Origin: Dyella acidiphila
GTDB lineage: Bacteria; Pseudomonadota; Gammaproteobacteria; Xanthomonadales; Rhodanobacteraceae
Length of the DNA: 64,000 nt
Assembly (NCBI RefSeq): GCF_014863405.1
Contig: NZ_JACZZA010000013.1
Span: 62,001-126,000 of the forward strand
Direction: 5' to 3'
The notes below the pieces were generated by a model. It ran no database searches. It saw nothing but the letters and a program-made list of their open reading frames with translations, and was not told the DNA's origin. The position numbers and the translations under genes are program-made. Shown in pieces: positions 41,560-64,000 of this stretch (within the stretch, counting starts at the first letter, position 1; each line of letters starts with the position of its first letter).

Positions 41560-44500
41560 CTACTCCGCCAACAGCTTGCGCTCGTCCATGGTCAGCGCCT
41601 GCTTGCGCGCACTGCTGAGCCGTCCCGCGCCGAGCACCTGCACGGGACTGTTGGGGTCGTAACCGTTGGAATTCTGATTGATCATTGTGCTGCCATCGCC
41701 AAAGCCAAGTACCTGCACGGCGATAATCGACGGCTGCTTGCTCAATGCATCGTTCTGTTGCTGTTGCACCATGCTCTGCGCCATCTTGCTCACCGCACCG
41801 GCGGCGGACGAAGCGGAGCTCAGCGCACCGACGTTCACGGTCTGCGCCGCCGGCACACCGATCTTGGTGCCTTGCACCTGGATGTTCACCGCGTTCAACA
41901 CTTGGGCGGCGGCTACCACCAGATTGCCGGAGACGCGGATGCCCGCATCGCCTGCATCCACGGTGCCGCGCGGGGCAACCAGATAGACATTGCCCGGCGC
42001 CGCACCCGGCGTGGTCTGCAAGGTGGCGATACCGGCACCGCTCACCTCACCCTTGGCATCGATCAGACAGAAAGCGTCCAGGTCGCACAGATAAGTCGGC
42101 GGCGGTATCACGGCCACCGTCTTCGCACCCTGGCCGGCGTTGATATCGCCGTTGGAACTCCAGATCACCATGTCGCCGCCCTGCTCGGTGAAGATGCGGC
42201 TTTGCGCCAGCAGCAAGCTGCGGTCGGTGAAGATATCTACATTGCCCTGCTCCAGGGTGAGCACGCCCATGCTGTTGGGGCCGGCCACCACGGTGCCGCT
42301 GGAATTGGTGATCACCGGCGGCGCATCCACGCTGCCGATCAGCGCCTGCCCGCCAGGACCCAGAATGCTGACATTGCCGCCCTGCTGGGTCTGGATGGTG
42401 GAGCTGCGGATATCCAGATCGCCGGTGTCCACCGTCTTCGCTTCGCCATTGAGGCCGCCTGCACCGGTACCGTTGTCGGTATAGCCCAGCGCCGCGGGGA
42501 ACAAGCTTTCGATGGCGGCGTAGCCGCGCGCGTACTGGTGGTAGTAGGGACTGCTCGGATCGTTGTAATCCACGCCGACCTGGGCCAGCAGCTTGAAGAA
42601 TTCCTGCTGCACGAATAGCTGCTGCTTATAGGTAGGCAACTGCTGGAAGGCGGTTTCGGCCTGTTGCGTGGTCAGCACTACGTTGAGCTGGTCCTGTGCA
42701 AAGCCGGTATCCGCCACCTGGCCGTCTGCTTGCTGCTCCATGAAAGTGACCAGATCCGGCAGCAGGCTGCCGAAGCCATCCACGCCATTGGCGTTGCTCA
42801 GGTATTGCGTGAGGAAGTTGCTGGTGGCGATGCCCGGCCCCACGCCGAACAACACATCGATGCTGGCGCCATCGTGCGGCAGATACGGATTGAGCGTATT
42901 GCCGATGGTTTCGATGCCGGTCGGGATGGTGGTATTGGCTACTTCGGCGTTGGCATTGAGAATATCGGTCTGGCTGGTGAACGGGCCGATATTGCGGCCG
43001 GCTTCCACATCGAGCGTACCGACGCCGCTCAATTCAATCACCGGCACCAGCTGATAATTCAGGCCAAGCGGTGTCAGCGCATGCAGCACGCCGGGGTTGT
43101 ACTGGGTGTCGTAAATGCTGCCGCCGGCGGCGACGCGGGTGACATCCGACGCATGCGTCTGCTGGCCGATCAGCGACAGATCGACGATGTCCTGGCCCGC
43201 GTAGATCAGCGCCGGCTTGTCCGGCTCGATCAGCATCTGATCCATCTGGATGCCGGTGGACGACGTGGTGCCATTGATGATGCTGCCGCTGAGTGCATAG
43301 ATGCGCACCGGCGTGGTATCGGCATCGTGCAGGCCGGCCTGGTACAACTCGCTTTCGTCGTTGGTCGGCGACGTTCCCCGCTCCAGATAATGTTCCGGAT
43401 TCAGCGTCAGATAGTTCTGGCTGTCGGAGCCTTCCGGCTGCAGCGGCGAGGGCAATAGCGAAGCGGCCGCGTCGATCAGGCCAAAGCCATCCGCGATCGA
43501 TCCGCCCTGCTGGTCCAGATCGTAGTTCTGCTGCACCAGATTGACCGACGTCGCCGCGAGCAGGCTCAGATTGCCGATGGCCGAGGGATACAGGCCGCCT
43601 GCGGTAAGAATATTGATATTGCCGTTCAACGCGGTGAAATCGAGCGTCGAAGGCAGGATGCCGTAACCATTGCTGCTGGTTTGATTGTCGCCAAACACCT
43701 GCGCTTCCCAGGCGAGGCTGCCCAGAGTCAAGTTGCCGGTAGTGGTTACCGCGGTGACTGCCGAGTTGCTGCTATAGCTTTGATAGTCCGGCACGAGGCC
43801 GCCCGGAGCGGCGTACGACGGATCGAGGATATCGGCGATATCCACGCCACTGCGCGCCTGCACCGTCCATTGCGCATCCTGCAGCGCGAGCACGGTGGAG
43901 ACCGCTACCGGCGTATTGCCGATTGCGACGCCGGCCGGACCGGTGGCATTGGCCGGCAGCACGTATGTGAAATCCGAACCGATCAGGCCGCCGGCCGCCA
44001 GGCTGCCCGTGCCTCGAGCGACAAAATAGCTGCCGCTGAGAATGTCGCCGCCCGCGTTGACGGAGAGATTGCCGCCGCCCACGGTGGTGATGGCGGTGGC
44101 CGCGGCATTGGCATACCAGGTGGTGGGCAGCGATACCGACAGATCGCTGATATTGCCGCCCGCGCTGACGGTGACATTGCCGCCCGCACTCATCACGCCC
44201 TGATCGAAATTGGCGAAATTGATCGAGCTGGCGATGGTGTTGCCGTTGGCATCGGTGCTGTTGCCGGTTTCCATCCACGGCCACCAGTACTGGCTGATCA
44301 ACGCACCTTTGGTGCCGGTGATGAGGCCCGTGCTGTCGTAGACCTGTTCGATGCCGTTGATGTTGCCGCCTGCGCTGAGCAGGATGTTGCCCGCGCCGAC
44401 GGGATTGACCTGGCCGGTGACCAGCATGTCCGGCATGCCGGCTACCGGCGCGGCCACGCTTACCGATGTATCTGCGCTGGTGCCCACCGCAGGCGCGCCC

Positions 44501-47500
44501 GCGGTGTAGACCGCGGCAGGCGCCGTCGAATCCTGCCAGTTGATATCGCCGGCCGCGACGATGTCGATCGAGCCGGTGCCGGTGCGCACCACGGTGGGCA
44601 ATTCCAGCGTGTAGTTATTGGGCGCACCGCTGAGCGTGTACTGCACCGCGAAGTGGCCATCGAGATTGACGTTGCCTGCCGCGCTGTTCGCCATCACTGC
44701 AAGCGGGTCGGCGCTGGCGAAATTGGCGCCCGCGACCAGCTGGTAGGTACTGCTCGATCCGCCCAGCAAGGTGGCCGATTCCAGCGACGCCGGATTGCCG
44801 AGGCTGGGCATGTTCGACGGGCTGTTATTCGGCGCGGCGGGTACCGTTGTGACGCCTCCGGGCGTACTGTCCGCCGGCGCATAAGGTGCGTAGAACAGCT
44901 GCGATCCGCCCGGCTGGCCATTGGTGAAAGCCATCGAAACATCGCCCAGCGGCCCGGCGCTGGATACGTAATGCAGATAGGCTGCATAGCCGTTGATGTA
45001 GGCGTTGTAGTCGGTGGTATACGCACCGTATGCGCTGCTTGACGTGGGTGCCAGTGGCAGCAGCAAGGGCGAAGGCGTCTGCACCTGCGCAAGGCTGAGG
45101 TTGCCGTTGATGTCCGAATTGCTGCTGTTGAAATGGGTGGTCAGCCAGGTTTGATACGCCGCGACGTAATCGGCGTAGCTGGTAAAGCTGGCCGGCTGCG
45201 GTGCCACCATGCTGGTGGGGTTATAGGGCAGGAAGGCGACAAAAGAGCCGTAGTTGTACAGCAGGCTGAAGGTATTGCCGCCGCCCGTGCCCACTTCATT
45301 GATGTACTGCGTGTAGTTGGCGTAGTACTGCGCCGTCTGGCCTGCATCCGGCGCCATGACCGGTTTGTAATATTTATCGGTACCGGTGCTGAGAATGAAA
45401 GACACGTACGCGAACTGCTGCGGATCGTAGTAGTACTCCGTGTACTGGCCCGACGCATTGGGCTGCCAGATCGGATACGGATTCTGGGCGGTTCCCAGAT
45501 AAGACGCCGTCAACAGGTATTGGTTGGAAGCCTGATAGGCCGCCAGTGCTGCATCGTAGTCAGCGGTGATCTGACCGCCAGGCTGCAATACCACCGGCGG
45601 CGCAAGATCCGCTCCGTTGTTTTGTTGATAGAAGCCATCGGTAATGCTGGCGTCGACATTGACGTTGTGCAGCGCCTGCACGGTCAGCGTGGGCGCAATA
45701 CCCGACGCGGAGACCGCCGGATTGGCGCCATAGCGATAGGCCAGCTGGATGGTGCCATTGCCGGCGGTGACACCGGCGCCGAGATTCCAGTTGGTGAGTA
45801 CCGAGATATCGCCGCCGTTGACGCCGGCCACCGGATTGATCAGCTCGATGCCTGGGCTGATTTGCAGATTGGCGATGCCCGCATAACGATTCCCGAAGCT
45901 ATAGCCGGGCTGCTCGACATAACCCATCAAGGTGCCGGCGCCCTGGGTGGCGTCGCCGTTGACGTAGCCGTAGAACGTCTGGTGCGCGGCGTTGGCCGTA
46001 TCGGGTACGAAGTAGTCGTTCTGCAGATCGTCTTGCAGTTGCGTGGCGGTGGTCGGCGCCGCGACGATGTTGCCGCTCGCGTCGTACCAGGTACCGGCCA
46101 GCAGTTGCGGCGTGCCGTCGGTGCCGGCGCCATACCAGCCGGCGGGATCGATCAGGCCATCGAAATAGAGCGCCGGGTTGGTGTTTTTGTTTTCGGTATC
46201 GGCCGTGCTCCATACCGCGTACGGCACGATGGTGACGTTGCTGGCGCCGCTGATGGTGGCGTTGTTGGCGAAGCTGATCGGCACATCGCCATCGGCCAGC
46301 AGCGGTGCGCGCAGGGAGACCATGCCGCCGATGCCGCCAGCGCCGCCCGCCACATTGACGATGGCATTGGGCCCGAACACGATGCTGCCGGCATTGCCGG
46401 CTTGCACGTCTTCGTAGCCATATGTGCTGTTGAGCTGGCCGATCGTCGCCGTGCCGGCAGTGCCGATCTCCACCAGGCCGCCCATCTGCCCGGCCAGGCT
46501 GCTGTTCGCCAGCAGGCTGCCGTTGATGGTGACGCCATTGCGACCGAACAGCTGGATTTCGCCGGCAGCGGGGCCCGCGGCATCGACCGTGCCTTCGATA
46601 TCCACCACGCCATTGCTGGCATTGACGGCGCCATTGCCGCCGTTGGCGGTGAGGTATACATCTTGTGCCACCAGCCGCTGGCCGGCGGAGAGCAGCAGGT
46701 TGCCGGCGCCACTGGTGATCGCGATGCCGCCGGTGGTGCCCGCGCTGCCGGTCAATTGAGCGAGCTGATCCAGATTGAGCGCACCGCCGCTATTGAGGGT
46801 GAAATAGCCGCCCAGATAGCCATTGGCCGCGCCGCCTTCAAACGTACCGTCGAGCGTGGCGAGATTGTTCGCATTGATGATCAGGCTGCCTGCCGTGCCG
46901 CCCAGCGGCGCGCCGGCAAAGTTCACTACGGCGCCGTTAGCGACCGTCACCGAACCCTGCGTGGAAGCCAGCGTCAGATCGCCACCCGTTGCATAGGTGG
47001 TGACGTCGTAGAAGGTCTTGTTGATGCCGGCGACGTCGAGATTGGCGCTGCCGGTCAACGTGAGATCGCCGCTGCTGGCGGTAAGCGTGAGGTTGCCGGC
47101 CAGCGCGTCCACTTGCGTGCCTACGCCGAGCGCGCCGCCGCTGAGCGTCAGCGTGCCACCCAGATTGTTGTCGCTGAGCGGCGTGCCGCCGACATGGTTG
47201 ACGGCAAAGCTGCCGGTGGTGGTGAGCGCGGTATTGGCGCCGCTGCTGGCCAGCAGGATCGGCGTGTTGAAGCTGACATTGGCCGCACCGAAATCCATCC
47301 CGCCATTGCCCTGGCCGGTGATGCCCTGGCTGGCGTTGGCGGTCACGCTGGCGAAGCCCTGGGTGACGCTGCTGCCGGCGGTGAAATCCAGCTCGTTGGC
47401 AGTAAGCGTCCATTGGCCCGTACCTGCTGCCGCGGCGGCGGTGCTGGTACCCACCGCGTTGCCCAGCCCCAGCGTGCCGGCCTTGATGCTGACGGTACCG

Positions 47501-50500
47501 CCATCGCTGACGTAGGCGTTCGCATTGAGGTTCAAGCTTTGCGGCAGGTCGATGCTGACATTGCCGAGGAAGTCGATGGCGCCGCGGCTGCTCAGCGTTA
47601 CCTGGCTGGCATCGTTGAACAGGCTCAAGGTGCCGGGACCGATCACCAGGCCGCCGGTACCGCTGCCGGCCGGCGCATCGATGCCGACAAAGTTGATCTG
47701 GTTCGCCGTGGCCTGGATGTTCTGCGCGGTGAACACCGCATTCGGATCGACGCTGGTGGCGCCGGTGGTATCCATGGTCAGCGACGCGCCGCCTTGCACG
47801 GTGGCGCCGGCGGCGATGGTGAGATTGCCCTGGGTGGTGCCGGAAACATCGTTGCGCACGACCGCTGCGACACCATCCTGTGACACGCGCAGCAGCGCAC
47901 CGTTGCCGCTGATGGCACTGCTGCCGGTAGTACCGAACAGCAAGGGCGTGCTGTTCGGTGTGGCGCTGCCGGTGGCGGCAAGATAGCTGCCCGACTGCAG
48001 CACGATGCCTTGCGCGCCCGCGTTGCCATCGGCGACCAGCAGGATCTCCTGCCCTTCGAGCGGATCGGCGCTGTCGTTGGAGAGCACCAGGCTGTCGGTA
48101 TTACTGGTGATCTGGTAGCCGTCGCTAGTGAGCTGGCGGGTACCGCCCAGCAGCAAGCTGCCCGCGTTCAACGCAGTGAGCTGATCGGCGGAAATCTGCA
48201 GATAGTTGCTGCCCAGCGACGTAGAACCGGGGCCGACTACCTGGATCGCCTGCGCCGCGATATCCACCAGGCCGGGGCGTCCGCCGCTGGCGGGCGCATC
48301 GCTGAGTGTCGCGCCCAACTGCAATTGCTGGTTGGCGCTCAGGATCAGATGGCCGCCGTCTTCCGGCAGCTGTGGCGTGACCGTGCCGGCGCTGGCGGCC
48401 TGGCTGGCGAAGTAGCTGTTCGCTTCGGTGAAGGTGTACTGCGAGTACTGCTGCCACACCGGCGCGGACTGCACCAGGAACGTGGTGTTGGTCGACGCGT
48501 GCGCGCCATCCAGCGCGTTGGCGAAGTAACCGGTGATGCTCAACGTGCCATCGGGCAGCACCACGTTCTGGCCCAGCACAGCGTTTTGCGAACTGGTGTT
48601 CTGCACGATGCGATACGCACCCGGCAGCGTCGCGTAACCGGCCGGCAGCAAGGTGTAGTAGCCGGCCGGCAGGCCGGCGATGCCGGACAGATAGACCGAC
48701 TGGCCCACGGCCGGACCGGCACCGGCGTCGGCAGCGCTGGTGAGAGCCGCATCCTGCGCGCCGACCGGCGCGGTATAACCGGGCAGGATGGCGTAGATCG
48801 CGCGCCCGTCGGCGTATTGCGATACCTGCACGCCACTGGTGCTGTTGGCGTAGCTGGTCTCGTACTGGGTCAGCACGTTGACCGTGCCGCCGGTGCCCGG
48901 CACCCATTCCGATGCCTGCAATTCGCCGCCGCCGCTGATATCGATGGTGGCGCCGCTGTTGAGCGACACATCGTTGCCGGCGATGGTGATCGACTTGGAC
49001 GGCGGTGCGGTCAGCGGCGACACGGTGTAGCTGCTGGCGGAGCTGCCTGCGTAGTTCCACTCCTGGCCGTCGGTGGTGCTGCCATAGGGCACGGTTTCGC
49101 CATCCAGCGACACCGAACTCAAGCTGCCGGCGCCGAGCGTGACGCTTTGCGTGGGCTCCAGCGGATACACCGGCGCGGCGCTGCTGCTGATGCCGAAAGC
49201 GCTCAGCGTGCTGGCGGTGTTTTGCTGCGCGCCGATGACCAGCTCGCCGGCCGGCACCCACACCGTGCCGTCCTGCACGACGTTGTCCGCATCCAGCAGC
49301 AGGGCGCCGCCGGCCGAGAGCGGCACGCTGGCGGGGTTGCCGTTGCCCAGAATGGTCAGCGTGGTGCTGGGACTGAGCGCGACGCCCTGCGCGTTCTTCA
49401 GCGGACTGGCATCGATCACGAACGCGTAGTTGGTGACCGGATAGAGCTCGGTCGCCTGCAAAGTCAGATTGCCGGCACTGAACAGCAAACCGGCCAGCGG
49501 CGTGCCGCCGGCGGGATATTGCAGATTGGCCGGTTCGTAGAAACGGATGTCGCCGCTGGCCGTGTAGTTGGCATTGGCCCAGCCCTGCAGATTCATCAAA
49601 CCGCCGAGGTCGATGAAGTCGGCGTGGATATCCAGCGTGCCGGTGCCGGCCACCGGGCTCGGCACATCGCTGAGTGCACCGACCAGTTCCACGTAGGGCG
49701 CGTCGATCTGTACGGTGCCGCCGCCCTGATTGATGGCCGACGTGCTGAGCGCAGACAGTTTCGTGCTGCCCGCCGGCAACGCCGACAGGCTGGGCGTATA
49801 GGCCTCGAAGCTTTTGCCCAGCGAAAGATCGACATTGCCGGAGAAGGCCACCGGCACCACCGCCGAGTTGGCGATGGCGGAAGGATTGGCAGGATCGGAG
49901 CCCAGCATGAGGCTGCTGATGCCCGAGCCATCCAGCCGGTCCAGCGCGAAATCCAGCACGCCGGTGGTGGCCTTCGCCGCCACCTTGCCGCCCGGCTGCA
50001 AGCCGGAGCCGGGCAGGAACAGTCCGGATTGCTGCAAGACAATCGCCGTGGAGTTGGCGGCCAGATGGAAGAACGTGGCCAACTGGCCAGGACTCATGCC
50101 CACGATCTGCAGGCTGCCGCCTTCCGCCTGGGCACTGCCACCCTGCGCGAGCAGAGTGCCGTCCGCATCCAGACCCGCGGCGGCGCCAAACAGGATCGAG
50201 CCGGCATTGCTCCATACCGGCGTCGGTGCATAGCCGGCGCTGGCGCCCGCGTAAGCGCCGTTGGCCACCGGCTGGTCGTAGACGTCGGAGCTGCCCGACA
50301 CATCGATCAGGCTGCCCTGCTGAGTAAGTACATAGCCCAGCGGCGAAGTGAGACTGACACTGCCACCGTTCAACACCACACCGGTGCGCGTGGTGGCGTG
50401 CGTGGCCAGCCCAAGACCGAGGCTGTTGCCGGGCTCGGCCGCGGCCAACGGATTGATCAGCGACACGCCCGCGGCATTCAACACCGCCTGCGATTCCAGC

Positions 50501-54538: not shown

Positions 54539-54916
54539 TTAATGCGCCGGCACCGGCACGCCCAGCAGGGGTGGGGGCGCCGCGGCCGGCGGCCGCTGCG
54601 GATACACGGATTTACCCAGGTTGCCGCCCATGCGGATGCTGAGCGTGGAATAGTTGAACTGCCCAACCTGCTGATTGCCCGGCGCATGCGCGACGGCATC
54701 GAGTTGCGGCTGCAGGCCCGGCGGCGCCTGCGCGGAAGCGGCCAGCTGCTGATTGAGACAGGCGTAGGAGAGGGCCGGATGGTCGTTGACCGTCACATCC
54801 ACGCAGGCAGCGCCCGCCGCCGCGTGGGGCGTCGCCGATGTCTGCGCCGGCAGGGGCGCAGACATCAGGGACGAGATACCGCACAAAAAGCCGATCAGAA
54901 GACGGGATGCGCGCAT
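54539..54916 (-). CDS. Small secreted protein of the TPS island
   Basis: A 125-residue protein. The signal peptide ends near APLPAQTS (about residue 25). The mature part has one Cys pair (GAACVDVTV and LSYACLNQQL) and a Pro-rich end, PPAAAPPPLLGVPVPAH. No family is recognised. The ATG at 54916 is chosen; a GTG three codons earlier lies too close to the AGAGGAG ribosome site. It starts 30 bases after the OmpH/Skp-like gene and is the last gene of the exporter operon before the TpsA gene. A role in export or surface display of TpsA is inference from position. Confidence 0.65.
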   Translation of the reverse strand: MRASRLLIGFLCGISSLMSAPLPAQTSATPHAAAGAACVDVTVNDHPALSYACLNQQLAASAQAPPGLQPQLDAVAHAPGNQQVGQFNYSTLSIRMGGNLGKSVYPQRPPAAAPPPLLGVPVPAH

Positions 54917-54946
54917 GGCATGCACACTCCTCTGCCGGCTCAGGCG

Positions 54947-55564
54947 TTACGGCGTGCCGCTGCCGGTATTGGCAGCCGGCACCGGTTCCAGGTTGAACGA
55001 AATGGTGGTGATCTTGGCGTCGAGGCCCTGCACCACGGCCGGCGTCAGGTCGTTGGCCATGTTGCCGCCGAACGCCACGTTGCGATCCAGCAGCAAACCG
55101 CACTTCTTGCTTTCGTAGGCGCTGGCGATCACCGGCTGCGCGTACTGCGCGATCTGGTCCAGCGCCTTTACGCGGGTGGCCTCGATCTGGCGACCCTTGG
55201 TCTGCTGGTCGATCTGCACCTGCTGCATGCGCTGGCCCAGCGCCTGTTCCTGCGCCTGGCGCTGATCGGCCGAGAGCGAGGAGGCCTTGGCGCGATAAGC
55301 CTGCACGTCGGTGTCGATCGGCTTGCGCTCCGCATCGATCTGGCTCTGCGCCTGCTGGGCCAGCTGCTTCAGGCGGGCGGTGGCGGCCTGGCCGACCTTG
55401 GCGTTGGCGAAGATCGCCTCGCGCGACAGCAGGCAGACGCCGGGAACGACCGGGCCGTTCAGCGACGGGCCGCCGGTGGCGCTGGTCTGGGCGTGGACGG
55501 CGGCGCCGGGCACGCCGATCAGGGCGACGGCCGCGACCGCCAGGAGGGTTCGATCGATACGCAT
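54947..55564 (-). CDS. OmpH/Skp-like periplasmic chaperone
   Basis: A 205-residue protein. The signal peptide ends near VHAQTSA. The mature protein follows the OmpH/Skp plan: an early VCLLSREAIFANAKVGQAAT strand-helix, long coiled-coil arms (about 60-140, LKQLAQQAQSQIDAERKPID, QALGQRMQQVQIDQQTKGRQ), then the returning helix and a YESKKCGLLLDRN strand. Skp trimers hold unfolded outer-membrane or exported proteins in the periplasm. Placed inside a TPS operon, this copy is likely dedicated to keeping the 4200-residue TpsA unfolded; this is inference. The ATG at 55564 is behind AAGGAAT. Confidence 0.8.
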   Translation of the reverse strand: MRIDRTLLAVAAVALIGVPGAAVHAQTSATGGPSLNGPVVPGVCLLSREAIFANAKVGQAATARLKQLAQQAQSQIDAERKPIDTDVQAYRAKASSLSADQRQAQEQALGQRMQQVQIDQQTKGRQIEATRVKALDQIAQYAQPVIASAYESKKCGLLLDRNVAFGGNMANDLTPAVVQGLDAKITTISFNLEPVPAANTGSGTP

Positions 55565-55704: not shown

Positions 55705-56328
55705 TCACGGCTTCTTCACGGCCGCCCGCGGGTCATACCGCTGCTCGTACAACTTATCCCCGTAAGCTTGCGCCGCGTTTTCCAGCTTCACCCGCTCCGA
55801 CGCCGCAAACGGCTCGCGGCTGGCCAGCACCGTACCGAACGACATATGGCTGTAGGCGTCGAGGATCTCGTTGCCGACACGGTACAGCTGCTGGTTCCTG
55901 GCGGTGCAGGTGCCGACCTGCGCTTGGGCCGTGCTCAGCTGACTGGCCAGTTCGCCGTCATGCCCTTCCTGCTCGTGCTGCCTGGCATCGGCAGCCGCCA
56001 CCTGTTTTTGCAATTGCTGCACCTGTCCCTGTGCCTGCTCGCGCGCCGCACGCTCGGAAGTCAGTGCGGCGGCGTCCTGCGGGTTGCCGGTGTGCGTCTT
56101 CGCCAGCTCGGCCTTGGCCGTGTCCAGCTCCTTGCGCGCGGCATCACGCTCCTGTTCCAGCTGCGCCTTCTGTGCCTGCCACTGCGCCTGCTGGCCCTGC
56201 AGATCCTGCAGCTGGCTGCGCGTGTCGGCGAGCTGCGAGCGCAGCTGTTCTTCCAGCGTCTGCGCGCTGGCCTGCATGCCGATCGACAGCGCGCCGAGCA
56301 GCGCAACACTCAGTAGTAGACGTTTCAT
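55705..56328 (-). CDS. Periplasmic coiled-coil protein
   Basis: A 207-residue protein with a signal peptide ending near ASAQTLEE (residue 23-25). Residues 25-125 form a long Gln/Ala/Glu-rich coiled coil (QLADTRSQLQDLQGQQAQWQ, EQAQGQVQQLQKQVAAADAR). The C-terminal part holds GTCTARNQQLYRVGNEILDA and later FAASERVKLENAAQAYGDKL. No family name is certain; similar proteins occur beside TPS and TonB genes. The ATG at 56328 follows TGAGGAC and lies 10 bases behind the porin stop. A role as periplasmic scaffold is inference. Confidence 0.72.
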   Translation of the reverse strand: MKRLLLSVALLGALSIGMQASAQTLEEQLRSQLADTRSQLQDLQGQQAQWQAQKAQLEQERDAARKELDTAKAELAKTHTGNPQDAAALTSERAAREQAQGQVQQLQKQVAAADARQHEQEGHDGELASQLSTAQAQVGTCTARNQQLYRVGNEILDAYSHMSFGTVLASREPFAASERVKLENAAQAYGDKLYEQRYDPRAAVKKP

Positions 56329-56338: not shown

Positions 56339-58147
56339 TCAGAACTGCGTGCTGATCTCGAGCTGCACCACGTCGATGGTGAAGGGCGGTCCGTACACCT
56401 GCTTGGCGCCGTAGTAGCGCGCCGAGACCCAGGTGCGATCGGCAATGCCGTAGTCGCTGGTGAGAATGAAGCCCTTGGCATTGGTGCCGCCCAGGTGGAA
56501 GTTCTGGTCGGTCAGGCCGTCGAGCATCGCGTCGGGCTGCAGATACTTGTAGCCCAGCGCAATGTTCCATTCGTTGGCCGCCATCGGATGCGGATTGCCG
56601 ATGATGCCGCGCAGCAGCCAGCCCACCGGGCCGCTCTTGTACGGGCCATTGGTGCCCGCCGTGCTGCTGCTCTGGTAGTTGTTCACCGGAATGCCCAGGC
56701 CGTCGGGATAGCGGTCGAACGCATCGCGCGCGTGATAGGCCAGGTTGCGTTCGTATTCGGCCTGCACTTCCATCGGCGTTTCGCCGATCTTGAAATCCAG
56801 CTTATTGGTGAAATCGGCGATGTGATAGTTGTACGACAGGCCCACGAACTGCGGCTGCGCATAGTTATCCGGCGAAGACGGATCCGGCACGATGTCGCGC
56901 AGCAGGAATACCGTATTGCCCCACTGCATGTAGTCGGGCGCCGTATCGTCGGTGCTGCAGTAATTGATGCCGGTGTAGATCGCGCACGGCGCCGACAGCT
57001 GTCCGCGCATGCCGTCGAAGTAATAGTAGGCCAGCGCGGATTTGAAGCTCACATCCTGCGCCAGGTTCCACTTCAGGCCGAACTGCACGGCGCTCAGCCA
57101 GCGGTTGTCGGAGTACTTCTGATTGCTGAAAGCCTGCGCAGGCGCTTCGTTGCCGGTGGTGCCGCCGGTGTACTGGATCGGGAACCCGCCGATGGTGGCG
57201 AACGAGGTCAGGTCGTCGGTCAACGGCAGCTCGCCATGGCTGGCGATACCGTCGAAGTTCAGCTCGGTGGAATAGATCAGGTCGGTGACCATGAACGGAT
57301 CGGGCATGCGGCCGGCGGTAAGCGACAGATCCTTGTACGGCTGCCAGCGGATATACGCCTGGTCCAGCCAGAGATCCTTCTTGATCAGGCCGCCGCCGAG
57401 CGTCTGCGTGGTGGATACCGGATTGTTGTCGCCGCCCGAACCGATGCGCACGCCTGCGGTGATGGTGTCGCCCAGCTTCACGTCCATGCCGATATGCGCT
57501 TGCAGGCGCAGCATATTGGTGCGGTTCTGGGTGGAGTTGAGAATCGGCGGATACACGCCCGAGGTAATGCTGTTGATGTCGTACGGCCCGGTGCGGTTGA
57601 GTGTGCCGTAGTCGATGAAGTCGTTGGCGTTGTTGCGGCTGTACAGCCAGGACTCGTCGCGCACATGCACATCGCCGTACCAGCTGATGCGGTCGAGCCA
57701 GCCGGGCAGCGCGTTCGGCTCGGCCCAGTGCTCGTCCTTGGCCTGCGCGATCACTTCCTGCTTCACCTGGTCGCGGATTTCATTGCGCACACTTTGCGGC
57801 ACATAGGTAACGCGCACATCGCCCGGCTGCGCGCCGTCGGTGGTGGTGGCCACGGCAGCCGGCTGCGAAGCCGCGCTGGCGCGCGCCTGCGCGGCTTCGT
57901 CGTCGGCCTGCTTGATCAGGCCGTCGGCTTCGGACTGCGTGATCAGGCCTTTCTTCACCATCAGGCGGATCAGGTTGATGGTGGCGTTGGGCGATGGGGC
58001 TTCCTGGGCGAACGCGTTCGCACCCAGCAGCAGGCCGACAGCGATGCATAGCGCTTTCACACCGAGCGCCGCTTTGTTTCCCCGCTCCCCGGAGCGGAGA
58101 CGGGACTGGTTCGCCGCACCCTGCACACTTGCGATTGGCAACTTCAT
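56339..58147 (-). CDS. Putative outer-membrane porin (Porin_5 type)
   Basis: A 602-residue protein starting at ATG 58147 behind TTGGAGAATGGA. The signal segment is VKALCIAVGLLLGANAFA (about 30-47), after an unusually long basic N-terminus. A short helical stretch (LMVKKGLITQSEADGLIKQA) and linker precede a beta-barrel from about 150 on, with many alternating strands and aromatic girdles (ISWYGDVHVRDESWLYSRNN, KLGDTITAGVRIGSGGDNNP) and a C-terminal Phe in LEISTQF, the usual Bam recognition end. It fits the putative porins of PF16930, whose substrates are unknown. It lies 28 bases behind TonB in the same operon. Confidence 0.83.
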   Translation of the reverse strand: MKLPIASVQGAANQSRLRSGERGNKAALGVKALCIAVGLLLGANAFAQEAPSPNATINLIRLMVKKGLITQSEADGLIKQADDEAAQARASAASQPAAVATTTDGAQPGDVRVTYVPQSVRNEIRDQVKQEVIAQAKDEHWAEPNALPGWLDRISWYGDVHVRDESWLYSRNNANDFIDYGTLNRTGPYDINSITSGVYPPILNSTQNRTNMLRLQAHIGMDVKLGDTITAGVRIGSGGDNNPVSTTQTLGGGLIKKDLWLDQAYIRWQPYKDLSLTAGRMPDPFMVTDLIYSTELNFDGIASHGELPLTDDLTSFATIGGFPIQYTGGTTGNEAPAQAFSNQKYSDNRWLSAVQFGLKWNLAQDVSFKSALAYYYFDGMRGQLSAPCAIYTGINYCSTDDTAPDYMQWGNTVFLLRDIVPDPSSPDNYAQPQFVGLSYNYHIADFTNKLDFKIGETPMEVQAEYERNLAYHARDAFDRYPDGLGIPVNNYQSSSTAGTNGPYKSGPVGWLLRGIIGNPHPMAANEWNIALGYKYLQPDAMLDGLTDQNFHLGGTNAKGFILTSDYGIADRTWVSARYYGAKQVYGPPFTIDVVQLEISTQF

Positions 58148-58175
58148 TCCATTCTCCAAAAATAAATTCGATAAC

Positions 58176-58850
58176 TTAGCCGGGCCGATAGCCGCGCATC
58201 GCAACGCGCACCGGCATACTCAAATGCGGGGGTGGTGGCGTGTCGATGCGCACCGTGCGCAGCACGTCGATCAAGGCATGGTCGGTATTGGGCGAGCCGC
58301 TGGAACTCATCAGCTCCGCGCGCGTCACTTCGCCCACCGGCGACAGCCACAGGTTCACGCGCACGCTGAAGACCAGGCGGCGCGTGCGGTCGTCGCGCTG
58401 GATCGCTTCCTGCAGCGCGTAGCTCAAATACTGCTCGTACGAGCCGCCGCCGATCCCGCTGCCGCCGCTGCCGACCATGCCGCCGCCTTCGCCGGCGCCG
58501 ATGTTGAACGAGTCGTTGCCCGCCTGTGCCGGACCGTTGATGGTGATCTGCTTGGCCTGGTCCGGCGCCTGCTTGGGTGCTTCCACCGGCTTCACCGGTT
58601 CGGCCGGCTTGGGCACTTCTTCCTTCACCACTTCTTCTTTCTTCGGCTCCGGCGGCTTTTCCTTCGGTGGCGGCGGCGGTGGCGGCAGCGGCGTGATGGT
58701 GGCGATGCGCGGTGCGGAACGGCGCACGCCTACTTCGTGGCCCGCCAGCATCCACACCAGCCATGCAGCCGCCAGCACCGCCACCACGGCAATGATGCGT
58801 CCGCGCCAGCGGCGCCAGCGGCTTTCGTCGGTGTAACCGGGCTCGAACAT
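58176..58850 (-). CDS. tonB: TonB-family protein
   Basis: A 224-residue protein: a cytoplasmic basic start, a membrane anchor at about 19-40 (IIAVVAVLAAAWLVWMLAGH), a Pro/Lys/Glu-rich spacer (ITPLPPPPPPPKEKPPEPKK), a Gly-rich hinge around 118-138, and a TonB C-terminal domain (about 140-224) with YLSYALQEAIQRDDRTRRLV and VNLWLSPVGEVTRAELMSSS. It would transmit proton-motive force from ExbBD to an outer-membrane partner. It starts 4 bases after the ExbD stop. No TonB-dependent receptor is encoded in the window, so the partner may be outside or may be the porin or TpsB, which is unusual. Confidence 0.87.
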   Translation of the reverse strand: MFEPGYTDESRWRRWRGRIIAVVAVLAAAWLVWMLAGHEVGVRRSAPRIATITPLPPPPPPPKEKPPEPKKEEVVKEEVPKPAEPVKPVEAPKQAPDQAKQITINGPAQAGNDSFNIGAGEGGGMVGSGGSGIGGGSYEQYLSYALQEAIQRDDRTRRLVFSVRVNLWLSPVGEVTRAELMSSSGSPNTDHALIDVLRTVRIDTPPPPHLSMPVRVAMRGYRPG

Positions 58851-58854
58851 CGCG

Positions 58855-59259
58855 TCAGCTCGATTGCTTGCCGGTCACCAGACCGACTTGGGTGAGATCG
58901 AGGCGGCGCAGCAGATCGAGAATATCGATCACCTTCTGGTACTGCACATTGGAATCGCCCTTCACGATCACCGGAAAATCCGGTGTCAGGGCTTTCTGCT
59001 GGCGCAGGCGCTCTTCCAGTTCGCCGATCGTCACCGGAAACGCATCCAGGAAAATCTGTCCGGTGTCGGACACCGTGATCGCCTTGGTCTGCGGCTTGGC
59101 CAGGCTCACCGAGGCGCTGGCCTTGGGCAGATTCACTTTCACGCCCTGCACTGCCGCGGTGGTCATGATGATGAAGATCACCAGCAGCACGTACGCCAGG
59201 TCCAGCATCGGCGTGATGTTGATGTCGTCGTACGGCTTGTCGTCGTCATTGACCTGCAT
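58855..59259 (-). CDS. exbD: ExbD/TolR-family biopolymer transport protein
   Basis: A 134-residue protein. A short cytoplasmic start (DDINITPMLDLAYVLLVIFI) carries the conserved membrane Asp (D20 in MLDLAYVLL), and the periplasmic domain has the ExbD pattern FPVIVKGDSNVQYQKVIDIL. It completes the proton channel with ExbB. It overlaps the ExbB gene by 14 bases and lies 4 bases before tonB, showing translational coupling. Confidence 0.92.
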   Translation of the reverse strand: MQVNDDDKPYDDINITPMLDLAYVLLVIFIIMTTAAVQGVKVNLPKASASVSLAKPQTKAITVSDTGQIFLDAFPVTIGELEERLRQQKALTPDFPVIVKGDSNVQYQKVIDILDLLRRLDLTQVGLVTGKQSS

Positions 59260-61093
59260 GGCGCACCTCGCGGGCCTCGATCGTGGATTGGTCGATCGGG
59301 CGGTGCAGTTCGGCCAGGCGGGTGACGAATTCGTCCACGAACACCTGCATGTTCGCGGTCACCGACTTGTTGCGGGTCAGCAGGTAGTTGTAGCCGAACA
59401 GCGCCGGGATCGCGACGAACAGGCCGGCGACGGTGGCCAGCAGCGCGGCCGAGATGCCCGGCGCGATCGCGTTGATATTCACGTCGCCCGCGGCGGCAAT
59501 CGCCGCGAAGGTGATCATCACGCCGACCACCGTGCCGAGCAGGCCCAGGAACGGACCGCCGGAGATGGCGATGGTCAGCATCACCATCGAGCGCGAGAGC
59601 GCCTGGTTTTCGCGCACCAGGGTGGAGTCCATCACCGCGCGGATCGCTTCGATCGATTCGGAGGCGATCACCATGTGGCCGTGCGTATCGCGGCGGCGCC
59701 ACACTTCCTTGGCGCCGGTTTCATACAGGCGGTACAGCGAAGAGGCGCCCAGTTCTTTGCGAATCGCCGGCGAGGCGTCATTGCCGGACAGGCCCAGCAG
59801 GTTGCTGCCCAGTTCGCGATAGCGATGGATAAAGCGGTCGTTGGCGGCGGCCACCGCGGACACATAACTGCCACGCTGCCACATCACCGCCCAGGAAATC
59901 ACCGCCATGATCATTAGCAGCGCGATGACCACCCAGGCATCCACCGTCACCGACTTGACGATGATGCCGAAGTAGCCGAAGCCGAAGCCGGATTTCTTTT
60001 CGTCGTCGCCGTAGCCGATCAGCTTCGACTCGGCACCCTGCGACAGCACATCGGCGGCAATCACCGTCGCCTGCCGCGCCACGCGCGACAGGCGCAGCTC
60101 ATCCATCTGGCCGAGGAAGGACGCAAACGGCACCGCGGCGCCGGTGCTGCCGGGCGCAGCCGCTACATCGCCGCCCACCGTGGCGCTGCCGCTCAGCGCC
60201 GGCAGTGCGGCAGCGAGGCTGGCGTAGGGACGGCCATCCACATACAGCTGGATCTGGCCGTTGGCCGCGGTCACCGCAAGATGCGTCCACTGCCCCGCTT
60301 TCAGCGGTTCGCCGGCGGTGCTGCGCAGCGGCTTGTCGCCGCCATCCACTTCCACAAACGGTGCGCCGCCATCGATGCCGATCAACAGTGCCTTGGCATC
60401 CTGGCGATGGCCGTAGATCAGCGTGGGCGTAGTCGGCAGCGCATCCAGCTTGATCCACGCGCTGAAGGTGAACGCGCCGCCGTCCTTGATATCCAGCGAG
60501 GAACTGGTCGGCAAGGTCAGCACCGTGCTGCCGTCGAAACGACCGGCGCTGCCGGCAATGCCGCCATCGACCGTACGCAAGGCGCCGCTCTGCGCGTTAT
60601 TGCCGTAGGCGGTGGCGTCTTTCGGCGGCTGCCCGCTCTGTTCGTCGAAGTGATAGACCAGGGTGTAATCGGCATCGAAGCTGGCCGGACCGCTGCTCAG
60701 CGCGGGCGCCTTGCTGTTGCCGTAATACATCCAGATGGTCTGCTGGCCGTTGGCCGGCATCTCCGGCACGTCCAGCCAGATCTGCGCCACGCCCATCACC
60801 GGATCGAAGGTTTCGATCTGGTAGTTGAGCGGCGTCTTGCCGTCGCTGCCGACAAAACGCAGGTCACTGCCGGTCTTGCTGATGCCGTCGAACTGGAAGT
60901 TGCCCGGATGCAGGCGGATCAGCAGCGGCATGCGTCCGGCCGCATCCGGAAGATTGGCGCCCTTGGCGCTGGTATCGAGCGTGATCGGCTTGCGGTACGA
61001 CCAGTCGTCGTTCCACCACGAAGCCTCGGCGGCGCTGCTCAGGCGTGGCAACAGCAGCAGGCACAGTGCGCATACATAGATGAAATACCGCAT
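59246..61093 (-). CDS. ExbB/MotA/TolQ proton channel protein with N-terminal DUF2341 and LamG-like domains
   Basis: A 615-residue fusion starting at ATG 61093. The signal peptide ends near SSAAEAS. A DUF2341-like domain spans about 25-125 (WWNDDWSYRKPITLD, AQIWLDVPEMPANGQQTIWM), then a LamG/concanavalin-like domain about 140-345 (YTLVYHFDEQSG, FTFSAWIKLD, GQWTHLAVTAANGQIQLYVD, MDELRLSRVAR). The MotA/TolQ/ExbB part follows at about 375-605, with TM1 near 384-404, and the two conserved helices ISGGPFLGLLGTVVGVMITF and ISAALLATVAGLFVAIPAL. Normal ExbB is about 240 residues; here a 350-residue periplasmic sensor or carbohydrate/peptide-binding part is added. It overlaps exbD. Confidence 0.9.
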   Translation of the reverse strand: MRYFIYVCALCLLLLPRLSSAAEASWWNDDWSYRKPITLDTSAKGANLPDAAGRMPLLIRLHPGNFQFDGISKTGSDLRFVGSDGKTPLNYQIETFDPVMGVAQIWLDVPEMPANGQQTIWMYYGNSKAPALSSGPASFDADYTLVYHFDEQSGQPPKDATAYGNNAQSGALRTVDGGIAGSAGRFDGSTVLTLPTSSSLDIKDGGAFTFSAWIKLDALPTTPTLIYGHRQDAKALLIGIDGGAPFVEVDGGDKPLRSTAGEPLKAGQWTHLAVTAANGQIQLYVDGRPYASLAAALPALSGSATVGGDVAAAPGSTGAAVPFASFLGQMDELRLSRVARQATVIAADVLSQGAESKLIGYGDDEKKSGFGFGYFGIIVKSVTVDAWVVIALLMIMAVISWAVMWQRGSYVSAVAAANDRFIHRYRELGSNLLGLSGNDASPAIRKELGASSLYRLYETGAKEVWRRRDTHGHMVIASESIEAIRAVMDSTLVRENQALSRSMVMLTIAISGGPFLGLLGTVVGVMITFAAIAAAGDVNINAIAPGISAALLATVAGLFVAIPALFGYNYLLTRNKSVTANMQVFVDEFVTRLAELHRPIDQSTIEAREVRHAGQ

Positions 61094-61157
61094 GGTTGAA
61101 CCCCTATCGAAGATGATCACTGCACGAACGCCGCGTGATGGTTGGTCGCCCGTTGGC

Positions 61158-61185
61158 TGTCATTCCCGCGAAGGCGGGAATGACA
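61158..61185. repeat. 12-bp-stem hairpin between the TpsB and ExbB genes
   Basis: TGTCATTCCCGC (61158-61169) pairs perfectly with GCGGGAATGACA (61174-61185) over a 4-base loop. Without a T-run it may lower read-through or protect the mRNA end between the first and second gene of the operon. Confidence 0.6.
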
Positions 61186-61230
61186 GTGGAAAAGGCGGAG
61201 GTTTCGTGTGTATCTGGACATATCCGCGCC

Positions 61231-62844
61231 CTACAGCCCCGCCTTGACGCTAAACAGCAAATGCCCGTCATGCGCCCGCGTTTCCACGCCGTCTTTGAGC
61301 GGGTAGGCGTATTCCAAATTTCCGTTCAAGTAATGGAACACGGTGAACTGCGTGCCGATGCCGGTGCTCAGCAAGGTGAAGCGGCCGCGCTGTTCGGGCA
61401 GCGGATCGATCAGCATCAGGCGGGCGCCATCGACGAACACATGGAAGCGCCAGTCGTTCGCCCACGAGCCCAGCCAGGCGTGGACCGACGGGCTGCGCAC
61501 TTCCACCGAGGCGATCGCGCCGTTATCGCCGGTGTCTTCCGCCGACAGATAGCCGCGCACGCTGCTCATGCCGCCGGCCGCGAACTGCTCGCTCGAGACC
61601 AGCGGCGAATCGGTGGCCTGTGCGCTGGCGCGCGTGGCCAGCGCAAAATCATCGCCCAGGCTGTGCACGTAGTTGATGTCCAGGTGCAGGTCGGCGAAGT
61701 TGTCGCGCGCGTTGTAGCGCTGGTTGTCGAACGCCGTATTGCTGCTGCCGGCGCCGCGCAGCCCGAAATTGCCGGTCAGCGTGAAACTGGAGGTGGCGGT
61801 ATCGGTGACGTGCTGGCCGGTATACGCCGCGGTCAGCGGGTAATACGTCAGCGGTGCTTCGGAGGTCTGGCCGCCGAGCGTGATGTTCTGGTCGAAGTGC
61901 TTGCGGCTGAAGCCGAACGAGACCATTTGCGTGTAGTCGCCCAGCACCGGCAATTGCCGCGTCGCCTGGAAGCTCACCGCATTGCCCTTGCCGAGCACGG
62001 TGGTGCCGCCGAGCGTGTTGGCATTGCTGTTGGACTTGTACGCCGAGCCGAGCAAGCTCCAGTCCGCACTCAACGGCGCCAGGTACGACAGCGCATACAC
62101 CTCGGTAGCGTGCGGATCGTCCGGCGCCACGATGTAGGAAGCGGAAAGGGTGTGGCCGAGCTGCCACAGATTGTTGTAGCTGACATTGGCGATGGTGCGC
62201 AGATCCGGTGTGCCGGCGCTGTGGTCGTTGTTCACTTCCACGCTGCCGTGCCACGGATTGCTGTCGTCGACCTTCAGCGTCACGTCCATGGTGTCGGGTA
62301 GGCTGCCCGGCGCCAGCACCGGCACCACCTGCCGTCCGGGCTGGGTGCGATTCAACTGCGTCAGCTGCTGCTGTGCCTGGTTGAAATTGGGCACGCTGCC
62401 TTCGGCCAGCGCCGGCACCGCATCGCGGATTTCTTGCGGCGAGTGATACTTCGCACCTTCCACGCGCACGCGGCCGATGCTGTTTTGCACCACCTGCAGC
62501 AGGATCACGCCGTCCTTCACCTGCTGTGGCGGCAGCTGCACCACCACCGACTGATAGCCCCTGGACTGATACAGCTTCTGCAGCGCGTTCTGCGCAGCAT
62601 GCACATCGTTCATGCTGCGGCCGGGCCCGAGGAACGGCTCTACCGATTGCTCGATATCCACATTGCCGAGCAGCGTATTGCCGCGGACCAGATATTCATT
62701 GACCTGGAAGGTGGATGGCGCCGACGCGGGTGCCGCCTGGTTCTGCGCATGCACACACAGCGGCAGCGACAAGGCCAGCGCCAGCGCAAGTTGCAACGAA
62801 GCACGCCGACGCACGTGCGCGCCAATTCCCTTTCGCATGCTCAT
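61231..62844 (-). CDS. TpsB outer-membrane transporter (ShlB/FhaC/HecB family)
   Basis: A 537-residue protein. The signal peptide ends near CVHAQNQ. Two POTRA domains span about 45-120 (FQVNEYLVRGNTLLGNVDIE, LQKLYQSRGYQSVVVQLPPQ) and 122-195 (SIGRVRVEGAKYHSPQEIRD). The C-terminal 16-strand barrel follows, with the L6 hallmark VRGY at 429-432. It ends KAGL rather than in an aromatic residue. It exports TpsA across the outer membrane through the barrel, taking the TPS domain by its POTRA domains. In well-studied systems no energy source beyond folding is needed, which makes the ExbB-ExbD-TonB genes behind it notable. Start ATG 62844 follows AGGAACGGGGCGA; a second ATG is at 62838. Confidence 0.93.
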   Translation of the reverse strand: MSMRKGIGAHVRRRASLQLALALALSLPLCVHAQNQAAPASAPSTFQVNEYLVRGNTLLGNVDIEQSVEPFLGPGRSMNDVHAAQNALQKLYQSRGYQSVVVQLPPQQVKDGVILLQVVQNSIGRVRVEGAKYHSPQEIRDAVPALAEGSVPNFNQAQQQLTQLNRTQPGRQVVPVLAPGSLPDTMDVTLKVDDSNPWHGSVEVNNDHSAGTPDLRTIANVSYNNLWQLGHTLSASYIVAPDDPHATEVYALSYLAPLSADWSLLGSAYKSNSNANTLGGTTVLGKGNAVSFQATRQLPVLGDYTQMVSFGFSRKHFDQNITLGGQTSEAPLTYYPLTAAYTGQHVTDTATSSFTLTGNFGLRGAGSSNTAFDNQRYNARDNFADLHLDINYVHSLGDDFALATRASAQATDSPLVSSEQFAAGGMSSVRGYLSAEDTGDNGAIASVEVRSPSVHAWLGSWANDWRFHVFVDGARLMLIDPLPEQRGRFTLLSTGIGTQFTVFHYLNGNLEYAYPLKDGVETRAHDGHLLFSVKAGL

Positions 62845-63226
62845 TCGCCCCGTTCCTGCGCCGACGCGTCGGCTCGCCCTGTCCGAGGCAAGAAAGCTAC
62901 TGCGCTGTTGATAACCGAATCACGACAAAAAGGTGTCCGTTGTTGCCGGCAAACGTGAAGACTTTGTCGACGGGCAGCTGCTGCATGCAACGACCCATGC
63001 AGGCTGTTCCACGCCTGCACGCCACGTCCTTGTGGCGAGGTGGATCGCGATCCCTGCGGCCGCTTTCTCATTCGCTTGATCACGCAACACATATCCTTAT
63101 CGCAGCGGCATTCAGCCGTCCGTATGCACAAGTCAAAAAGTCCCCGCACGCGTACGCGACTGCGTTGCGTGATGCGAATACCCGATGGAAGGGGCATCCC
63201 TGCCCGCCCACGACTTCCTTGCTGGG
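62845..63226 (-). other. Long leader between the candidate promoter and TpsB
   Basis: About 380 bases separate the -10 box at 63227 from the TpsB start. A 118-codon frame (63197 to 62841) overlaps the TpsB start as ATGA, but it is Arg/Cys-rich with no ribosome site and no resemblance to a known protein, so I treat the stretch as an untranslated leader. Confidence 0.4.
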
Positions 63227-63277
63227 ATAGACAGGCGGCGTTACGCCGGACTGAACCGTGTCACGAAAATTTAATTT
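63227..63277 (-). promoter_or_regulatory. Candidate ECF-sigma promoter of the TpsB-ExbB-ExbD-TonB operon
   Basis: Read leftward: AAATTAAATTTT, TGACA, GGTTCAGTC, then GTCTAT at 63227-63232, with the same 19-base distance from GGTTCA to GTCTA as in the block ahead of TpsA (54217-54267). It lies between the FecR stop and the TpsB gene. Placement and conservation support a shared regulator. Confidence 0.6.
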
Positions 63278-63361
63278 GGCGCGGGGAAACGGGGGATTTT
63301 TGGCTGCTGGTGACACGGAAGTGTCATGTACATCGACACACGAATGCGCAGCGCAGGCGGA

Positions 63362-63445
63362 GGTAGGTTGGGTTAGCGCAGCGTAACCCAACGATGTCGC
63401 TACGAAGAAAGATTGTTGGGTTACGCTGCGCTAACCCAACCTACC
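63362..63445. repeat. 31-bp-arm perfect inverted repeat behind the FecR gene
   Basis: The arm at 63362-63392 has an exact reverse complement at 63415-63445, with a 22-base loop. The arm begins GGTAGGTTGGGTTAGCGCAG. It starts 18 bases beyond the FecR stop and may end that transcript. The GGTTGGGTTA core also occurs at 20763-20772. Confidence 0.75.
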
Positions 63446-63463
63446 CCAGCCTGCGGGCGGGGA

Positions 63464-64000
63464 TCAGCTCAGGATGACAATACCGCCCGGCAGCGACGTC
63501 ACTTTCGCGCCGTAGGCATCCTGGATCAGCGCCGCCACGTCGGCGAGCTGGTTGAGCGAGAAGCGCGCCTGCACCTTGCGTGCGGCGAGTCCGTCGTTGG
63601 CCAGGATGAGGCGGCCGGGGCGGTAGCGATTGATTTCTTCCACCACCTGCGCCAGCGGCTGGCCGTCGAAAATCAGCACGCGGCGACGCCAGGCCATGGT
63701 GGTTTCCAGGTCGGCCGGCAACACCTGGCCGAAGCGGCCATCGCCATAATCGGTCTGCTGCGCTGTGTTAAGCACCACGCTCTGGCCGTCATAGTGCAGC
63801 GTGGTCGAACCATCCAGGCCGGTCACCTGCACCTTGGAGCTATCGCAGCGCACGTTGCAGCGCGCCTGCACGCCCACGTCGATGCGGCCGCCGCCGGCAA
63901 ACACGCTCAGCGGTGCACTGGCATCGGCCGTGGCCTTGACCTGGATCTCGCCACCGATCAAATCGATGCCCACCACCCGTCCCTGCACTCGGCGCAGGTT
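63464..64000 (-). CDS. FecR-family anti-sigma factor/regulator, C-terminal part (partial)
   Basis: The frame is open to the window edge; about 179 residues are seen. The first part is the end of the FecR periplasmic domain (GLDGSTTLHYDGQSVVLNTA, QTDYGDGRFGQVLPADLETT, MAWRRRVLIFDGQPLAQVVE), followed by a secretin/STN-type C-terminal module (RLILANDGLAARKVQARFSL, DVAALIQDAYGAKVTSLPGG). MAWRRRVLIFDGQPLAQVVE matches the usual W-(R/Q)-x-G-x-L-x-F core of FecR sensors of cell-surface signalling, which hold a FecI-type ECF sigma factor. The sigma gene should lie just beyond 64000. Confidence 0.85.
   Translation of the reverse strand, partial: NLRRVQGRVVGIDLIGGEIQVKATADASAPLSVFAGGGRIDVGVQARCNVRCDSSKVQVTGLDGSTTLHYDGQSVVLNTAQQTDYGDGRFGQVLPADLETTMAWRRRVLIFDGQPLAQVVEEINRYRPGRLILANDGLAARKVQARFSLNQLADVAALIQDAYGAKVTSLPGGIVILS

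Follow-up and report, generated by a model that had tools for sequence, protein, structure and literature searches.

Two-partner secretion (TPS; type Vb secretion) is described as proceeding without energy input, which raises the question of why a TPS locus should come with a motor of the ExbB-ExbD-TonB type and what such a motor would do. The locus considered here lies in a stretch of 64,000 nucleotides from Dyella acidiphila (contig NZ_JACZZA010000013.1; G000:C4:62001-126000, hereafter the window), in which gene families were assigned by Pfam and NCBIfam searches and the start codons of open reading frames (ORFs) were judged by eye. In order of transcription on the minus strand, it encodes fecR, tpsB, a DUF2341-LamG-exbB fusion, exbD, tonB, a Porin_5 porin, a coiled-coil protein, a Skp/OmpH-like protein, a small secreted protein and tpsA. 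Both hallmarks of TPS are present, an N-terminal TPS domain on TpsA and POTRA domains with a ShlB/FhaC-type barrel on TpsB, and the ORFs and family matches place every gene named in the initial annotation where it had been put. Sequence comparison across genomes establishes a single conserved block that comprises genes for the TpsB clade, the giant DUF3739-type TpsA, the TolQR/ExbBD-like motor with a predicted periplasmic DUF2341-LamG part on its channel subunit, TonB, the porin with its predicted periplasmic helices and the coiled-coil protein. As to the role of the motor, our preferred though tentative reading is a motor-coupled variant of TPS in which the motor acts late in the deployment of TpsA, and we would give it somewhat less than an even chance.

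That the motor belongs to the TPS locus is indicated by strongly positive co-occurrence. Neighborhoods were fetched around matches in genomes of the class and searched with profiles grown from the window proteins. DUF3739 was found in 24 of 369 class genomes (23 over the cut-off), DUF2341 in 30 and a ShlB-type TpsB in 153. The LamG-ExbB fusion was present in 21 of the 23 over-cut-off DUF3739 genomes, across 17 families, and lay on the same contig as tpsA in 20 of these 21; in the other (G310) the two genes are split over two contigs. Where the fusion is missing (G101 and G200), the tpsA end lies no more than 0.3 kb from a contig end, with a TonB-like fragment there in G200; the DUF2341 match of G101 is a 1631-amino-acid protein without an ExbB match and was excluded from the corrected count. 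The 24th DUF3739 genome (G223), under the cut-off, has no LamG-ExbB fusion. DUF2341 occurred without DUF3739 in eight genomes, one of them a fragmented assembly of 340 contigs (G104) that has the LamG-ExbB block with porin and coiled-coil genes, the remaining seven having DUF2341 in other proteins without an ExbB match. The corrected table of DUF3739 against the fusion (21, 3, 1 and 344 genomes) gives a Fisher p of 5e-30, to be taken as strong rather than literal because the genomes are related. Among the 21 genomes, the porin lay beside the motor in 20, the coiled-coil gene in 19 and TpsB within the fetched stretch in 18; the three without it there are G036, G070 and G221, the last two at contig ends.

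A replicate at the level of the phylum gave the same picture. Among 398 genomes, DUF3739 was found in 14 and DUF2341 in 13, all of them within the 14; three positives overlap the class sample, and in the ten new ones the ExbB half is inferred from ORF size only. In the 14th genome (G633) the ExbB half of the fusion sits at the first base of a contig, cut by the contig start, with Porin_5 behind it. Full-length Porin_5 was found in 31 of 31 DUF3739 genomes (of 34, with G070, G101 and G200 left out) and in none of 60 controls, drawn from the 129 genomes with TpsB but neither domain; four controls had partial weak matches. For DUF3739-type TpsA proteins, the regular separation of TpsA-TpsB pairs from the motor, which had been named as evidence against a functional link, was thus not observed, whereas for TPS in general it is the rule, as 129 of the 153 class genomes with a ShlB-type TpsB carry neither DUF3739 nor DUF2341. 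Those genomes, together with the TpsB tree described below and two further loci of D. acidiphila itself, rule out that all TPS systems carry a motor. The two loci, at G000:C24:76795-78552 and G000:C26:234331-236088, hold additional TpsB genes that fall outside the motor-linked clade, and no motor matches were found within the 20 and 15 kb fetched around them.

The gene order is equally fixed over a wider range. Named loci were collected by scanning contigs with 20 LamG-ExbB sequences and taking the best 80 of at least 559; picked by similarity to the window, they show conservation and not frequency. They span alpha-, beta- and gammaproteobacteria and include Dyella, Luteibacter, Burkholderia, Paraburkholderia, Pseudomonas, Achromobacter, Variovorax, Bradyrhizobium and Rhodoblastus, the closest being Dyella loci (LamG-ExbB of D. 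lipolytica is 86% identical). TpsB is encoded directly upstream of LamG-ExbB on the same strand in 80 of 80, and the order tpsB-LamG-exbB-exbD-tonB-porin-coil is kept in 75; four of the five deviating loci are short contigs and one (L183) has an extra TonB-like ORF before the coiled-coil gene. The joint recurrence of TpsB, LamG-ExbB and TonB in other genomes, proposed as a check on the initial annotation, is therefore strongly borne out by the class genomes and the named loci alike, and the class, phylum and named-locus counts rule out chance or a peculiarity of this genome. More than one TpsA may share a motor: G728 and G551 each have three DUF3739 TpsAs and one DUF2341 match, and several TpsAs with one motor are described for R. 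palustris (PMC2729926). Fixed partners (TpsB, the motor trio, porin and coiled-coil protein) with several TpsAs per motor fit a machine for one class of surface proteins. A row of exbB, exbD, tonB, porin, coiled-coil, YbjN and peptidyl-prolyl isomerase genes also lies at the end of the record of a Klebsiella pneumoniae IncFIB/IncHI1B plasmid (L255; NZ_CP065459.1, 5315-12803), a location which indicates that the module can travel.

The TpsB proteins themselves set these loci apart. The window tpsB (61231..62844, minus strand) encodes a protein with POTRA_2 (PF08479, E 2.3e-15) and ShlB (PF03865, E 6.7e-21) matches, both over the cut-off. In a tree of 63 TpsBs, 36 motor-linked sequences fell on one side of a branch with 100/100 support and a length of 1.55, and the 27 others fell outside; the 36 were taken from about 100 motor-linked TpsBs (20 from the class sample and 16 from the 80 named loci), and the 27 controls are mostly top-scoring ShlB matches, seven partial or undetected ones having been dropped. 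By this phylogeny the 36 motor-linked TpsBs placed in it, including PdtB of P. aeruginosa, are one clade. FhaC and CdiB typically, though not as a strictly defining trait, have an N-terminal plug helix before POTRA1. The stretch between signal peptide and POTRA1, with the signal peptide cut heuristically, has a median of 19 amino acids in 99 motor-linked TpsBs vs 52 in 25 others, and it is about 12 in the window TpsB, too short for a helix and a linker. Many motor-linked TpsBs are thus predicted to be unable to hold a plug helix. With FhaB/FhaC, HMW1 and contact-dependent inhibition systems the locus shares the TPS domain on TpsA and the POTRA domains and ShlB-type barrel on TpsB; it differs from them in the motor, the porin, the coiled-coil protein and the separate TpsB clade and, in most cases, in a short segment before POTRA1 and a cysteine-free TpsA tail.

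The nearest known parallel is in Pseudomonas aeruginosa, where the row is described as pdtA, phdA, pdtB, exbB2, exbD2, tonB4, PA0696 (a putative porin), PA0697, PA0698 (YbjN) and PA0699 (PpiC), with vreA (a signaling and a TolA/TonB-like domain), vreI and vreR near the block (PMC2729926, PMC7035377, PMC4971064). The initial annotation had named PdtA/PdtB as this parallel, and rightly so, since the six-gene block has the same order and the TpsBs share a clade. It had also taken the porin, TonB and Skp-like members to go beyond that plan, which is correct for the Skp-like gene only: tonB4 and PA0696, and the strain PA7 locus (L215), in which TpsA_C, TpsB, LamG-ExbB, ExbD, TonB, porin and coiled-coil genes run in one direction, rule out the porin and TonB as additions. 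Judged by single-sequence searches, which may miss members, the Skp-like gene is a local extra, found in 3 of the 80 named loci, all Dyella. Shared with the PUMA3 locus are a VreA-like protein with STN and TonB-type domains, an extracytoplasmic function (ECF) sigma factor, FecR, the tpsB-exbB-exbD-tonB-porin-coil order and the TpsB clade. The window differs in having the Skp/OmpH-like gene where P. aeruginosa has the YbjN and PpiC-type genes, and in the position of tpsA at the end of the row. The order shared with the P. aeruginosa locus and with PA7 assigns the window to the PUMA3/PdtAB kind; on gene content and phylogeny it is a further member, and the class-wide pattern makes this kind a distinct motor-linked variant of TPS. 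Homologues in six other bacteria were reported in 2009 to come with ExbBD, TPS and PA0696 (PMC2729926). Neither a statement of a class-wide link between motor, TpsB, DUF3739 and Porin_5 nor a description of these loci as a distinct TPS variant was found in the open-access literature searched.

The genes between the porin and tpsA are less informative. The coiled-coil protein, predicted to be periplasmic (55705..56328, minus strand; ORF to 56481, likely ATG 56328), is the positional counterpart of PA0697; it has weak coil-type matches under the cut-offs in Pfam and NCBIfam, and relatives in 76 of the 80 named loci. The putative periplasmic chaperone of Skp/OmpH type (54947..55564, minus strand; ORF to 55609, likely ATG 55564) matches PF03938 with E 1.8e-18. 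The small secreted protein (54539..54916, minus strand; ORF 54539-54925, likely ATG 54916) has no family match in Pfam or NCBIfam, and its matches in relatives, again from single-sequence searches, are noisy.

What kind of motor is it? The fusion (59246..61093, minus strand; ORF to 61120, likely ATG 61093) combines a lectin-like part, predicted to be periplasmic, with a TolQ/ExbB-type proton channel (DUF2341 4.4e-20, Laminin_G_3 5.4e-20, MotA_ExbB 1.8e-28), and its profile matched only the separate motor and LamG parts among solved structures. DUF2341 is reported as fused to generic ion-transporter A subunits, with function unknown (PMC12505986). The ExbD/TolR-like subunit (58855..59259, minus strand; family match E 8.5e-29) overlaps the fusion by 14 nt. 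The TonB-like protein (58176..58850, minus strand) has an N-terminal membrane segment, a proline-rich linker and a TonB/TolA-type C-terminal domain (TIGR01352 1.3e-7, over the cut-off; Pfam TonB_2 0.0013, under it). Of the overlapping genes that had been described, the exbB/exbD overlap holds, and that of tonB with the porin exists only with an upstream TTG start; from the likely ATG at 58147 the two are 28 nt apart. Channel residues T530 and T563 are invariant in 20 fusion sequences and the membrane aspartate of ExbD (MLDLAYVLL) is kept. With the roles that we assume for the channel threonines and this aspartate from E. coli, the motor should conduct protons.

The channel half is closer to TolQ (3e-29) than to ExbB (5e-16) among solved structures and ExbD is closer to TolR by NCBIfam, while the TonB domain is about equally distant from TolA, HasB and TonB. 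These affinities would suit a role in envelope maintenance, in which the motor, together with TonB, the porin and the coiled-coil protein, would keep hold of the outer membrane or pull on it at the export site of a giant protein, not touching TpsA directly, and the attachment porin OmpM1 as best fold match of the porin (E 1.9e-14) points the same way. However, the motor is tied to one TpsA/TpsB type and not to TPS in general, and no peptidoglycan-binding family was found in the window block by Pfam at E 0.01. We consider this explanation improbable. From Tol-Pal and Ton, with which it shares the TolQ/ExbB-type channel, TolR/ExbD and the TonB/TolA-type C-terminal domain, the system also differs in the DUF2341-LamG part fused to the channel and in its fixed tie to one TPS type.

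The porin leads to the main rival of a late step in TpsA deployment, which we rank next after it, namely capture and uptake: TpsA would capture a substrate at the surface and TonB would work the Porin_5 channel for import, so that the motor serves the porin. HxuA, the TPS protein of haem piracy (PMC5422565), and HxuC, a TonB receptor (PMC4873976), offer a model, with a TPS protein and TonB energy in one system. The porin (56339..58147, minus strand; ORF to 58204; Porin_5 E 3.1e-160), the counterpart of PA0696, is tied to the block as tightly as TpsB. It carries VRVTYVP at residues 63-69, within a weakly modeled, flexible N-terminal link, and a loose V-x-V-x-Y-V-P-type motif occurs in 88 of 98 porins (70 and 84 with stricter patterns). 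Nine of the other ten, all alphaproteobacterial, have HVTYVPE in this position as judged by eye, and the tenth, from G314, is unlinked. Column conservation in the porin alignment gives no independent support, because the alignment was drawn only from motif-bearing porins (46 of 85 listed). Uptake would also agree with the report that the P. aeruginosa locus, like OprO/OprP, goes up when phosphate is limiting (PMC9769906). After tpsA, on the same strand, the window holds two PstS-like PBP_like_2 genes and a YncE/lactonase-type beta-propeller gene (36043-40548); the former fit a phosphate theme as in P. aeruginosa, which is suggestive only. Haem-uptake genes (a TonB-dependent receptor, HemS/ChuX, a periplasmic binding protein and an ATP-binding cassette transporter) lie upstream of the vreA-like gene in the same direction (G000:C4:128121-134116; L002 4122-10117), and both neighborhoods may be counted in favor of uptake.

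On the other side, the AlphaFold2 model of the porin (mean predicted local distance difference test, pLDDT, 83.7) is a plain barrel of 16 strands with helices 5-17, 23-46 and 70-90 outside it and no plug. OmpM1 of Veillonella, a tethering porin, leads its fold matches, followed by MOMP, PorB, OmpC and DcaP; all 50 matches listed are porins or other 16-18-strand channels, with no TonB-dependent receptor among them, and a profile search found no solved porin relative. No plug-type receptor was found by Pfam in the window block, or in the conserved block as mapped through its own families, and the sole one found is that of the haem-uptake genes. The locus differs from HxuCBA in having a plain porin in the block in place of a TonB-dependent receptor and in lacking, for the most part, a C-terminal disulfide anchor (39 of 45 TpsA tails are cysteine-free). 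Uptake thus seems to us unlikely on balance, though a serious contender.

A regulatory role was also weighed, in which the motor only drives a VreA/FecR/ECF circuit and the TPS genes and porin are just its regulon. A VreR-like anti-sigma factor gene, fecR (63464..64000, minus strand, running beyond the window; 334 amino acids), adjoins the block, and ECF sigma and VreA-like genes follow outside the window at G000:C4:126449-126994 and 127004-127957, so that the vreA/ECF sigma/fecR operon of a PUMA3-type locus is found beside the block here. In the named loci VreA, sought with a single sequence and perhaps undercounted, accompanies the block in 24, ECF in 27 and FecR in 33 of 80. The VreA-like protein has an STN-type domain (E 2.3e-5, under the Pfam cut-off) and a TonB-type domain (E 3.7e-8), and is the next-best match to the motor TonB domain profile within this genome, hence the closest relative of the motor TonB there. 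However, weak single-sequence searches of the class loci detected FecR and ECF in G000 and G274 only, and VreA was reported not to be required for sigma-VreI activity in P. aeruginosa (PMC7035377). Signaling as the sole function is therefore very improbable in our judgment.

The C-terminus of TpsA offers the motor a possible point of contact. The window tpsA (41560..54162, minus strand) encodes a 4200-amino-acid exoprotein with a TPS domain at residues 145-409 (PF05860, E 1.2e-22; TIGR01901, 3.8e-19) and DUF3739 at 3995-4105 (1.2e-37), followed by a linker and tail. The tail contains VQVLGFG and a second copy, VQVLGAG. A strand motif of the VQVLGFG type was found in the last 130 amino acids of 45 of 45 DUF3739 tails, twice in 20 of them; judged by the remainder of these proteins, 0.05 would be expected. 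The 45 are the usable tails of 49, one being cut by a contig end and three being broken L165 pieces. No cysteine occurs in the last 150 amino acids of 39 tails, and six have two or more. In an AlphaFold2 model of the last 340 amino acids, beta-strands extend to about position 240, a helix spans 261-281, and 282-315, including the motif, has pLDDT <50. From its strands alone the C-terminus looks like the end of a beta-helix, and a fold search with it returned nothing at E 0.001. Conserved and set in a predicted disordered tail, the peptide looks like a docking motif.

These features can be combined into a possible course of events for motor-coupled TPS. TpsA would pass outward through TpsB with folding as the driving force, as elsewhere in TPS, while its C-terminal tail, with a flexible linker, a strand motif and mostly no disulfide hook, would be kept in the periplasm. 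The motor, via TonB, would then act on an outer-membrane part, either the TpsA tail or the porin N-terminus or both, whose short conserved strand motifs would suit beta-strand addition. The outcome could be a controlled late step of completing, holding or releasing the surface protein, and the VreA-like protein, with its TonB-type and signaling domains, would give the cell a readout of that contact. In a bolder version, TpsA stays threaded through a plug-helix-free TpsB while TonB grips its strand motif on the periplasmic side, and the motor, using the LamG part and porin as footing, pulls, holds or releases a filament some 4000 residues long outside the cell. We regard this version as rather doubtful; if true, it would amount to an energized, possibly retractable, type V system.

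Several observations weigh against a late-step role for the motor. Binding of TonB to the TpsA tail motif or the porin motif is a guess, and the tail pattern was written after viewing the very sequences counted. Segment length before POTRA1 does not separate the two groups cleanly, as several motor-linked TpsBs have 37-100 amino acids there (79 in G010, 100 in G119) and three controls have 12-22. Within the block the porin is no less constant than TpsB, and an uptake role would account for this as well. A review states in its treatment of type V secretion that no gradient powers it, and VreA is dispensable for sigma-VreI activation according to the P. aeruginosa work cited above. In zebrafish experiments described in PMC2729926, tpsA, tpsB and PA0695/tonB insertion mutants that overexpressed vreI matched the wild type in virulence, a result that does not test secretion. 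Furthermore, at G119 154050-156894, G136 2983018-2986142 and G150 C3 a motor trio has no TpsB, DUF3739 or porin next to it, which indicates that this motor type is not solely for TPS.

These trios were seen in two settings. In L088 (G136:C1:2983018-2986142) and L138 (G150:C3:168905-171804) no TpsB, DUF3739 or porin was present within the 18 kb fetched. At G119:C3:148447-162326 (L107/L108) a second LamG-ExbB/ExbD/TonB trio lies amid type II secretion genes, with GspD, E and F preceding it on its own strand and L, K and G following on the opposite one; the TPS block of that genome lies about 10 kb from the trio, on the same contig. A LamG-ExbB-type motor may therefore have a role in type II secretion too. 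In P. aeruginosa the Hxc type II system adjoins the block, whereas no type II secretion family was found among the selected window ORFs scanned.

It is important to consider what a motor of this kind would mean for TPS as a family. A motor-tied TpsB clade that extends over alpha-, beta- and gammaproteobacteria either contradicts the general rule that TPS is energy-free or reveals a job for the motor that has not been recognized. The TonB system of tonB4 was still called uncharacterized in 2020 (PMC7035377), and it now becomes a specific and quickly testable question, with the motifs in the TpsA tail and at the porin N-terminus as candidates.

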